Shown one piece after another: positions 4,313 through 7,010 of a DNA stretch of 7,010 nucleotides. The DNA lies in contig JAUWOV010000082.1 in assembly GCA_030611945.1 (NCBI GenBank), forward strand, positions 1 to 7,010. Direction: 5' to 3'. A program made the position numbers and the translations under genes. Position 1 is the first letter of the stretch. Each line of letters begins with the position of its first letter. The stretch is from a bacterium. GTDB taxonomy: Bacteria; JAHJDO01. The notes below the pieces were generated by a model, which worked only from the letters and a program-made list of their open reading frames with translations, ran no database searches and was not told the DNA's origin.

Positions 4313-5139
4313 TCCATTGACTCCCTGTACTCTTTTAATCTTTCAACATATTTATAAGGTATTCTTACGCTTCCCATTAGAATCCGATCTTTTCCCTCTC
4401 CATGACAATCAGAGCCTCCTGTAACCAAGAGTCCATAGTCTTTTGCCAGTTTTTCATAATGCTCAGCAGTTTCCTTAGACTGATGATTATAAAACGCCTC
4501 TATACCGCATAATCCTTTTTTTATGAGGTCTATTATAATATCGTCTCTGCGCAGTAGCATTGGATGCGCAATTATAGAGACACCTCCCATCCGATGTATT
4601 AATGAAATAGTCTCCTCTGAGCTCAATTTGTACCTCGGGACATAGCATGCTTTTCTATCTCCTATATGCCTGTTAAAGGCTTCTGCAATAGATTCTACAT
4701 ACCCCTTTTTTTTCATAACATGAGCAAGATGAAGTCTTCCTATTATCCCTCCTTTTGCCAGACCTAAAATCTCTTCAAACTTTATATTCATCCCAAATTG
4801 AGTTAACTTACATACTATTTTTTTCATTCGGCTAACTCTTTGTACGGACAGGTTTTTGAGTGTGTCTTGTAAAGTTTTATTTTCCCAATCTATAAACAGC
4901 CCTAGAATATGCACTTCGCTGCCTCTCTCATCCACAGCTAATTCTACTCCGGGGATAACTTCAACATTCATATCCCTGCCAGCCTGAATTGCTTCAGGAA
5001 TGCCTTGAACAGTATCATGATCTGTTATCGCTATTGTATGTAGTCCTTTTTTGGCTGCTTCCCGCACTACTCTTCTCGGTGAAAAGGTTCCATCTGAGGC
5101 AGTAGTGTGGATGTGCAAATCAGCGCATTTGTTCTTCAT
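4309..5139 (-). CDS. PHP-domain phosphoesterase (RNase AM / 3',5'-nucleotide phosphatase type)
   Basis: This cytoplasmic metal-dependent phosphoesterase belongs to the PHP family. The 276-residue length and layout match the YciV/RNase AM group, whose members remove the 3' phosphate from nucleoside 3',5'-bisphosphates or trim 5' ends of short RNAs. Likely metal ligands in order: H9 and H11 (DLHIHTTASDG), D16, D40 and H41 (AITDHD), E66 (PGVELAV), H77 (EVHILG), H192 (IIAHP), D244 and H246 (GGSDCHG). The middle insert at about 85-170 includes GRLHLAHVM, common in this group. The start is ATG; ribosome site is weak. The stop overlaps the next gene's start. Substrate assignment is by family only. 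A short ORF upstream overlaps this ATG. Confidence 0.88.
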   Translation of the reverse strand: MKNKCADLHIHTTASDGTFSPRRVVREAAKKGLHTIAITDHDTVQGIPEAIQAGRDMNVEVIPGVELAVDERGSEVHILGLFIDWENKTLQDTLKNLSVQRVSRMKKIVCKLTQFGMNIKFEEILGLAKGGIIGRLHLAHVMKKKGYVESIAEAFNRHIGDRKACYVPRYKLSSEETISLIHRMGGVSIIAHPMLLRRDDIIIDLIKKGLCGIEAFYNHQSKETAEHYEKLAKDYGLLVTGGSDCHGEGKDRILMGSVRIPYKYVERLKEYRESME

Positions 5140-5213
5140 TTAAAAATGTCTTCATGTTTAGCCAGTTCAAGAAAATATATTACATCTTTGATCATTTCTT
5201 TATATCTTTCCAT
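5136..5213 (-). CDS. Possible 25-residue small ORF coupled to the PHP gene
   Basis: An ATG at 5213-5211 opens 25 codons beginning MERYKEMIKDV and ending HEDIFK. Its TGA overlaps the ATG of the PHP gene as ATGA, the junction seen between translationally coupled genes. The peptide is charged and probably helical. No good ribosome site precedes the first ATG; the second Met (residue 7) has a weak purine stretch in front. The same frame stays open upstream of the ATG for nine more codons to a TAA, and beyond that is open for about 30 codons from an ATG at 5333. It could be a leader peptide, the decayed end of a lost gene, or chance in AT-rich DNA. Confidence 0.25.
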   Translation of the reverse strand: MERYKEMIKDVIYFLELAKHEDIFK

Positions 5214-5273
5214 TTTTTGGTAAAGAAATACGCTTGGTCTTTATTGACAATAAGGAAATATCATAAATAAGTA

Positions 5274-5311
5274 ATTTTGTCTATGTGTATTACAAAATGT
5301 GTGATTTTGTA
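5274..5311. promoter_or_regulatory. Alternating ATTTTGT/ACAAAAT half-sites, operator-like
   Basis: ATTTTGT occurs at 5274-5280 and 5304-5310, and its reverse complement ACAAAAT at 5292-5298. The second and third copies form an 8-base perfect inverted repeat, TACAAAAT (5291-5298) against ATTTTGTA (5304-5311), around the 5-base spacer GTGTG. The first and second copies form another with an 11-base spacer. The arrangement in a divergent promoter region suggests a binding site for a dimeric regulator. Confidence 0.45.
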
Positions 5312-5446
5312 GATACTGTTCAAGCTTTTTCATGCAATCACTGAATCGTTAATAGAAGCTTGTTATTATATAGAATACACAATGATAAAAATAGCTGGAA
5401 AAAGTGGACGAAATAGGCATTAAACGCACATTTTTGTCTGTTTTTA

Positions 5447-5475
5447 TTGAGGTTTTAGGCAAATTTAAGTATAGT
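5447..5475 (+). promoter_or_regulatory. Sigma-70-type promoter for the opine dehydrogenase gene
   Basis: TTGAGG (5447-5452) and TATAGT (5470-5475) match four and five of six consensus bases, with a spacer of exactly 17. Transcription would start near 5482, leaving a leader of about 90 bases before the ATG at 5572. The leader holds only small 5-bp stems (AACAC 5485-5489 with GTGTT 5493-5497; TAACA 5498-5502 with TGTTA 5508-5512). Confidence 0.5.
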
Positions 5476-5571
5476 AACGGAGAGAACACCAAGTGTTTAA
5501 CAGTTAATGTTATGTGTAAGTAAGGCAGGCTAAAGATATATAGGGCAGAAGAAATTTTAGAAGGATATAAA

Positions 5572-6681
5572 ATGAGAAAAAAGAAATATACTGTAATTGG
5601 AGCAGGAAGTGGAGGATTGGCAATTGCAGGAGATATTTTTCTACAAGGATACGAGGTCTCTTTATACAATAGATCTGAGGAGCGGATTGAATATATTAAA
5701 GACCATGATTATACAATACAGTTCGGTGATAAATCGGATAAAATCAGGTTAAATTATGTGGGTAATATCCTTTCTGAAGCAGTATGTAATAGTGATATAA
5801 TAATCATTGTAATAACTGCAAACGGACATAGTGATATTGCTGAAAAAATTGCTCCTTATCTAAAAGATGGTCAAATAATATTACTTGTACCCGGAAGAAC
5901 ATTGGGTGCTTTGTTGTTTAGCAAAACATTGAACAAAGTAGGGTGCAAAGCAAATGTTATTGTTGCCGAAGCAAATACTTTGTTTTTTGTCGCAAGACCA
6001 AAGAAACCTGACTTAATTGAAATCAAAGGAATTAAGAATGAAGTATCAGTATCAGCATTATATTCCAGGGATACTGATTATGTGATAGATGTTCTTTTAG
6101 ATGTATTCCCTAATTTAATCAAAGCGGATACGTTTATAGACACAAGTTTTAGTAATATTGGAGCCATATTTCATCCGGTAATTTTTCTTTTAAATAAAGA
6201 ACGCATTTTAAAAAAAGAAATATTTAACTTTTACACGGATGGTGTTACTAAAAAAGTTGCTCAATATATTGAAAAAGTGGATTTTGAATTCAAATCACTT
6301 GCATCAACAATTGGAATAAATACACTTTCAGTTGTTGATTGGTTAAATTCAAGATATGGACTTCCTAAAACTTCGATCTATGAAATGATAAAATCTAATC
6401 CTACATATAAAAATATATTGGCTCCTACAACAATAAATCACAGATATATTTGGGAAGATATTCCAACAGGATTAGTGCCAATGTCTTCATTTGGAAAAGC
6501 CCTGGGAATTCCAACTCCAACAATTGACTACTTTATAGAAGAAGGAAGTAAATTACTAGATACTGATTTTCGTTCAGAGGGTAGAACGTTGTGCAAATTG
6601 GGTCTTTCAACTGATAACCTGATTTCAGATTTGTGGGATGCAACAATTAGTGGAGAAAAAAGTTACAAATTGACTCAATAA
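5572..6681 (+). CDS. NAD(P)-dependent opine/octopine dehydrogenase family protein
   Basis: Opine dehydrogenases reductively join the amino group of an amino acid to a 2-oxo acid using NAD(P)H, or run in reverse. The 369-residue protein has an N-terminal Rossmann fold with GAGSGG at 10-15 and a beta-strand ending SLYNRS at 30-35, followed by VPGRTLGA at 107-114. The C-terminal octopine-DH domain (from about 188) has SNIGAIFHP (194-202) with the probable catalytic H201, and RYIWEDIPTGLVP (291-303) with D296. These correspond to the His/Asp pair known in Arthrobacter N-(1-D-carboxyethyl)-L-norvaline dehydrogenase. Length is normal for the family. The ATG has AAGGA 6 bases upstream. No nicotianamine-synthase-like gene or metal transporter is in view, so an opine metallophore role has no support here. 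The substrate is unknown. Confidence 0.9.
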   Translation: MRKKKYTVIGAGSGGLAIAGDIFLQGYEVSLYNRSEERIEYIKDHDYTIQFGDKSDKIRLNYVGNILSEAVCNSDIIIIVITANGHSDIAEKIAPYLKDGQIILLVPGRTLGALLFSKTLNKVGCKANVIVAEANTLFFVARPKKPDLIEIKGIKNEVSVSALYSRDTDYVIDVLLDVFPNLIKADTFIDTSFSNIGAIFHPVIFLLNKERILKKEIFNFYTDGVTKKVAQYIEKVDFEFKSLASTIGINTLSVVDWLNSRYGLPKTSIYEMIKSNPTYKNILAPTTINHRYIWEDIPTGLVPMSSFGKALGIPTPTIDYFIEEGSKLLDTDFRSEGRTLCKLGLSTDNLISDLWDATISGEKSYKLTQ

Positions 6682-6707
6682 ATAAGAGTCTCGGGATTTA
6701 ATAGAAT

Positions 6708-7010
6708 GTGGATAACATTATAACATTAGACGATACAATTGGTTTAGCAAAAACAGATTTTGATGCTCATACATTAGGTATGTCTGCAATTAAAGAGCTT
6801 CTTAAAGAATGTGGTTTTAAAGTTGTTGTTGCAAATTCTGAAGTATCAAAAGCAATTACAAACCTCAGAAATATATACAATTCATCATTAATCGAAAAAT
6901 GGATTATAAAATACAATATTAAAGCTTTAGGGTTTAGTTACCGTCTGAATGTTGATGATGCAGTACTAATATTCCAAAAACTTATGTACCAATTGGAATC
7001 AAAGAAAATG
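6708..7010 (+). CDS. Cobalamin (B12)-binding domain protein, 3' end outside window
   Basis: An open frame of 101 codons runs off the window, 26 bp after the opine dehydrogenase gene. Near the N-terminus it has TDFDAHTLGMSAIKELL, containing D19-x-H21-x-x-G24, the motif by which B12-dependent mutases and methyltransferases bind cobalamin with the histidine as lower ligand. GFKVVVA and later LGFSYRL (74-80) fit the next strands of the fold; SYRL stands where family members have SxL, with about 52 residues between G24 and S77 rather than the usual 41 or so. The DAHT-G word resembles lysine/ornithine aminomutase B12 subunits, as I recall them. The start is GTG, required to include the motif because the next ATG (6780) lies after it; a stop precedes the GTG and the ribosome site is weak (GGGA, 11 bases away). 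The activity depends on the part beyond the window. Confidence 0.72.
   Translation, partial: MDNIITLDDTIGLAKTDFDAHTLGMSAIKELLKECGFKVVVANSEVSKAITNLRNIYNSSLIEKWIIKYNIKALGFSYRLNVDDAVLIFQKLMYQLESKKM

Follow-up and report, generated by a model that had tools for sequence, protein, structure and literature searches.

Gene layout and reconstruction of the operon across two contigs

The window analysed here, 7,010 nucleotides in length, is the complete contig C41 of a bacterial genome (G000; 1.66 Mb, 119 contigs, 90.9% complete). Its minus strand encodes HisG, a HAD (KdsC-like) phosphatase, a HAMP protein, a PDZ protein, a histidine phosphatase and a PHP protein, and its plus strand carries two genes (Table 1): ODH, encoding an opine dehydrogenase of 369 aa, and, 26 bp past it, MUT, which starts at a GTG codon with a B12-binding domain and is still open at the contig end. 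The common direction and close spacing of these genes, as well as the DAHTLG motif of the second, were correctly recognised in an earlier sequence-only reading of this DNA. The promoter of their own that it also assigned to them was not borne out: 3 sigma-70-like sites were found between positions 5130 and 5700 against 3.1 expected, which is chance level.

Over 141 bases, the end of the window is identical to the beginning of the reversed contig C107, and such an exact overlap is the mark of an assembly-graph branch. As bait in searches of relatives, the 101-aa MUT fragment encoded in the window matched its own genome only, where its residues 55-101 were found with 100% identity on C107. Across the C41-C107 join, MUT spans 623 aa and is followed by LIG (331 aa) and RAC (349 aa), yielding the full order ODH-MUT-LIG-RAC in an operon located between purC and php. 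The join is independently supported by the synteny of purC and php in three genomes of the same genus.

Table 1. Position, strand and basis of the features of the operon and its flanks. Plain positions refer to the window; those with the prefix L041 refer to the locus that includes C107.
Feature	Position	Strand	Basis
ODH: opine dehydrogenase, CENDH (1BG6) type	5572..6681	+	ORF, PF02317, catalytic residues
MUT N-terminal B12-binding domain, first 101 of 623 codons	6708..7010	+	ORF, contig overlap, synteny
DAHTLG: DxHxxG base-off/His-on cobalamin motif; His21 at 6768-6770	6762..6779	+	sequence
Short 5' leader with GAAGGA ribosome-binding site (5560-5565)	5509..5571	+	sequence comparison
Intergenic DNA between php and the operon, not common to other copies	5140..5508		no Rfam match
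141-bp exact overlap, window end with end of contig C107	6870..7010		sequence identity
MUT remainder on C107	L041, down to 7566	minus	exact 141-bp overlap, synteny
LIG	L041:6584-7579	minus	downstream of MUT on C107
RAC	L041:5547-6596	minus	downstream of LIG on C107

ODH, LIG and RAC belong to recognisable enzyme families

ODH matches the octopine dehydrogenase domain PF02317 with 141.6 bits (cut-off 30) and is homologous end to end (residues 3-346, E 1.5e-69) to N-(1-D-carboxylethyl)-L-norvaline dehydrogenase (CENDH, 1BG6). It keeps the catalytic His201 and Asp296, each of them conserved in 49/49 homologues, and it differs from CENDH in having a predicted B12 mutase as its operon partner. LIG contains a Ddl-like ATP-grasp domain (PF07478, 94.9 bits, cut-off 24) and scores below the NCBIfam Ddl cut-offs (144 bits at best vs 243). 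RAC has the alanine-racemase (fold-III) fold and matches the ornithine racemase Orr model NF040742 over its full length with 402 bits, below the curated cut-off of 480.

MUT is predicted to be an adenosylcobalamin mutase

The first 101 residues of MUT match the B12-binding domain PF02310 weakly (21.9 bits, cut-off 32.1), and the cobalt-binding histidine is kept by every one of the 43 aligned relatives that have a residue at this position. A short MUT subfamily (L058-L069 and others; 24/43 aligned sequences) has CxHxxG as its B12 motif, with a cysteine replacing the first aspartate. The domain that follows beyond position 7010, read on C107, is a mutase by its predicted fold; neither Pfam nor NCBIfam yields a match to this large domain.

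Structural comparisons were based on an AlphaFold2 model of the MUT homologue of L021 (pLDDT 86.6, pTM 0.88). The top seven Foldseek matches of the model are all AdoCbl mutases, namely glutamate mutase, ornithine 4,5-aminomutase and lysine 5,6-aminomutase. It aligns with glutamate mutase (1cb7_B) at Z 27.8 over 377 residues (3.2 A), with lysine aminomutase at Z 27.0 and with methylmalonyl-CoA mutase at Z 18.8, and the closeness of the first two values means that the fold alone cannot separate glutamate mutase from lysine aminomutase. In profile comparisons glutamate mutase E is the better match (5.3e-6 over 357 columns, against 0.006 over 111 columns for lysine aminomutase). The glutamate mutase family PF06368 has no match in G000, and the MUT relatives of L069 and L068 score 24.2 and 17.7 bits against its cut-off of 26.6.

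The PLP lysine that three KamE controls (motif DAHTVG) carry at His+11 of the B12 motif occurs in 0/49 MUT sequences, which makes a PLP aminomutase unlikely; the likely reaction is a rearrangement of the carbon skeleton, or another one that needs no PLP. The kinship with lysine and ornithine aminomutases proposed in the sequence-only reading thus reduces to a shared fold: MUT resembles lysine 5,6- and ornithine 4,5-aminomutases in its barrel (Z 24-27) and in a DAHTxG-like motif, whereas it lacks their PLP lysine and matches their profiles weakly. With glutamate mutase (GlmE 1cb7_B plus GlmS) it shares the barrel fold, a full-length profile match and a B12 domain devoid of PLP lysine, but its B12 domain is fused N-terminally, its scores lie below the PF06368 cut-off and the alignment gives other residues at two of the claw positions. 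For cofactor use and fold, the placement of MUT among the AdoCbl mutases of the glutamate-mutase superfamily is strongly inferred.

Eight residues of MUT (Arg219, His221, Tyr300, Asp333, Arg335, Arg372, Arg441 and Glu486) do not vary across 44 sequences, and Arg298 is found in 43, a pattern that fits a carboxylate substrate. We take the arginine claw of glutamate mutase to be Arg66/Arg100/Arg149. In the hhalign alignment, the claw positions Arg66 and Arg149 correspond to His221 and Tyr300 of MUT, and the conserved Arg219 and Arg298 lie two residues earlier; because the claw positions differ, glutamate is not assumed to be the substrate.

These assignments bear on whether the operon might serve amino-acid catabolism in the manner of an ornithine- or lysine-like fermentation, with RAC making a D-amino acid, MUT rearranging it and ODH acting oxidatively. 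Both the match of RAC to ornithine racemase and the barrel that MUT has in common with ornithine 4,5-aminomutase speak for such a route, but MUT has no PLP lysine, RAC falls short of the Orr cut-off and is usually absent from relatives (see below), and an ATP-consuming ligase is out of keeping with it, all of which makes catabolism quite improbable.

A survey with MUT as bait identifies ODH-MUT as the core

Loci retrieved with ODH as bait cannot show whether the pairing is conserved, and the survey therefore used MUT. A caution is that the MUT profile (A2) had itself been built from ODH-linked members, although the search scans whole genomes regardless of ODH. MUT was found in 15 of 385 genomes, the window's own among the 15, and in 65 of 103 genomes of the phylum of G196. 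From these searches 34 loci were retrieved, with 35 MUT genes in all; ODH lies on the same strand for 34 of them, directly adjacent in 33 cases and with LIG in between in one, and the pairing seen in the window is thus conserved in other genomes. LIG is near 20/35 of these MUT genes and RAC near 0/35. Since ODH accompanies nearly every MUT gene, LIG only part of them and RAC none, the core of the system is ODH-MUT, and LIG and RAC are additions.

The sole MUT gene of the survey without ODH nearby (L105:4579-6213) has LIG. Two ODH-MUT copies lie ~10 kb apart in L102 (2758-5593 and 12948-15636), each with genes for an Asn-synthetase-like protein and a GHMP kinase beside it, and this double region is near an aspartokinase/homoserine dehydrogenase gene and a PALP-family (threonine-synthase-like) gene.

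The operon occupies a variable site and has probably spread horizontally

Three genomes of the same genus (G002, G003 and G004) harbour purC and php without the operon between them. The two genes touch in G003, leaving the interval empty, and enclose another insert in G004, whereas in G000 the operon fills the exact interval. Since none of the three has the operon there, its simplest explanation is a recent insertion at a variable site. The interval (L041:5540-5547 and window position 5139; L113-L119) varies within the genus, and in G002 it holds an aldose-epimerase-like gene identified by eye. A flavin-reductase-like gene (L041:4144-4683) between mrdA and purC in G000, where G002-G004 have a gap of ~20 bp, looks like a second insertion.

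With ODH as bait, copies whose ODH is 76-88% identical turned up in MAGs from at least six phyla; the labels are Aminicenantes, Cloacimonadota, Bacteroidota, Victivallaceae, Spirochaetales and Chlorobiota. Some of these bins may be wrong, but the insertion in the window itself is shown by synteny. Given this degree of identity across at least six phyla, the simplest reading is that the operon was acquired by horizontal transfer. The sequence common to several copies runs from ~65 bp 5' of ODH to the RAC stop codon, and the leader of the window is largely common to several horizontally related copies, with similarity lost just upstream. The four genes keep the same order wherever the contig extent permits. 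They form a contiguous operon in L004, L007, L008 and L010 (ODH being partly off the contig in L010 and RAC in L004), and the operon is also found, with an ODH fragment, in L021.

In the Victivallaceae copy (L007:12977-15061), two Ddl-like ATP-grasp ligases are fused in one 695-aa frame. Sequences resembling an integron attC site lie upstream of the operon at L006:9530-9625 and L005:9850-9930; their sequence is suggestive, but they fold no better than shuffles and were rejected as attC sites, leaving a lead for integron mobility only.

Riboswitches and neighbouring genes point to osmotic or ion stress in relatives

By position, an osmotic or ion riboswitch lies ahead of ODH-MUT in relatives of three lineages. 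An Rfam scan placed a c-di-AMP riboswitch 5' of ODH in L058, where the ODH ATG is 2 nt past the aptamer, and in L012, where ~250 nt separate the aptamer from the start codon. Three of the four c-di-AMP riboswitches in 32 MUT genomes (G050, G485 and G486; two lineages) are directly 5' of ODH-MUT, and the fourth, also in G486, is 5' of a gene encoding a LysM cell-wall hydrolase. An nhaA-I riboswitch, with a GC-rich hairpin and T8 after the aptamer, precedes ODH in L061. Both nhaA-I copies are on that contig, the other being 5' of an Asn-synthetase-like gene; members of the same Asn-synthetase-like family also lie beside ODH-MUT in L102 and L108, both of them devoid of LIG. The Rfam scan recognised no riboswitch in the upstream DNA and leader of the window copy, and in 20 loci of the phylum of G196 nothing except tRNAs scored above threshold.

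Neighbours of ODH-MUT in relatives include a Na+/H+ exchanger with a CBS protein, an NhaC-type antiporter, an MscS-type protein and a GNAT protein, the transporters varying between loci. An NRPS context considered for L071 was rejected, the long neighbours being MopE/VWA-type surface proteins. It has been reported that Na+ and c-di-AMP riboswitches control osmolyte genes such as ablA, and Na+ riboswitches also eam (PMC9337991), and nhaA-I has been described as a Li+ sensor class (PMC9646797). The ODH-MUT loci resemble the ablA and eam operons in that a c-di-AMP riboswitch stands ahead of an amino-acid-modifying enzyme, and differ from them in the enzymes themselves.

Proposed function of the operon

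The riboswitch positions, the ion-antiporter, MscS and GNAT neighbours and the known riboswitch control of osmolyte genes argue for an osmolyte: we judge it evenly balanced whether the product of ODH-MUT-LIG-RAC is a small amino-acid derivative of no net charge, a compatible solute being the likeliest kind, and the best reading of the product class is an amidated opine-type compatible solute. In the proposed sequence of steps, MUT, as a single-chain AdoCbl mutase, would first carry out a carbon-skeleton rearrangement on an opine or on an amino acid that bears a carboxylate. ODH, to judge from its family and intact catalytic residues, would then use NAD(P)H to couple an amino acid reductively to a 2-oxo acid, so that a secondary amine is formed. 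In a third step a carboxylate may be capped as an amide by LIG or, in other lineages, by an Asn-synthetase-like amidotransferase, and a GNAT enzyme may sometimes acetylate; RAC would finally set the stereochemistry of one unit. Where riboswitches are present, their position suggests that expression would be tied to osmotic or ion stress. Tentatively, MUT might further constitute a new class of AdoCbl mutase that has the opine of ODH as its substrate and carries out a PLP-free N-carboxyalkyl rearrangement, the amidated product being a new c-di-AMP-controlled compatible solute spread between phyla; we regard this combination as possible but doubtful.

Cell-wall genes are also under the control of c-di-AMP riboswitches. 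This, exemplified by the second riboswitch of G486, is the chief reservation on the osmolyte reading, and a further one is that the window copy has no recognised riboswitch. The negative scan of the 20 loci in the phylum of G196, the inconsistency of the neighbouring transporters and the description of nhaA-I as a Li+ sensor class also count against it. In a cell-wall or envelope pathway, RAC and LIG would produce an unusual peptide unit with a D-amino acid, and MUT and ODH would provide the wall with a modified amino acid. The Ddl-like nature of LIG, the fold-III racemase RAC, the LysM hydrolase gene under riboswitch control and BacA, which precedes ODH in L068, are consistent with such chemistry. 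We nonetheless think it unlikely, because RAC is near none of the MUT genes of the survey and LIG is lacking at 15/35, leaving ODH-MUT as the core, because there is no Mur-type gene among the annotated neighbours, and because the nhaA-I control and the antiporters are linked to ions. An opine-type metallophore would follow the logic of staphylopine (racemase, condensation, opine dehydrogenase), which RAC, LIG and ODH resemble; the only metal-related gene among the annotated neighbours, however, is a single cation-efflux gene, neither metal import or export genes nor Fur/Zur-type genes recur there, and the riboswitches point to osmotic or ion stress instead, so that a metallophore appears very improbable.

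Returning to the compatible solute, the osmolyte reading would, if true, provide anaerobes with a B12-dependent means of coping with salt, explain the targets of several riboswitches and add to the glutamate-mutase superfamily a new branch that can now be assayed. Irrespective of the product, ODH-MUT represents a widespread B12-dependent pathway, present in 65 of the 103 genomes searched in one phylum and in many others.

Relationship to earlier reports

The statement in the sequence-only reading that no described pathway pairs these two enzymes holds, in that none of the papers searched explains the ODH/B12-protein pair, but the 2009 genome paper on Halothermothrix orenii had already presented the pair as a putative operon in anaerobic thermophiles (PMC2626281). 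There, Hore_09740/Hore_09750 are given as an octopine dehydrogenase and a B12-binding protein; the latter is compared with methionine synthase, and no role is assigned to the pair (PMC2626281). This is apparently the same pair, matched by description and not by sequence; only the pair is given in that report, whereas the ligase, the racemase, the mutase fold and the riboswitch links are added here. The search returned no relevant paper joining ydaO with octopine and none joining opine dehydrogenase with glutamate mutase, a c-di-AMP riboswitch or an osmolyte; an earlier listing of this gene among the gene associations of c-di-AMP riboswitches may exist. An octopine-dehydrogenase-family gene, possibly the same, is induced in ethanol-adapted Thermoanaerobacter (PMC3751872).
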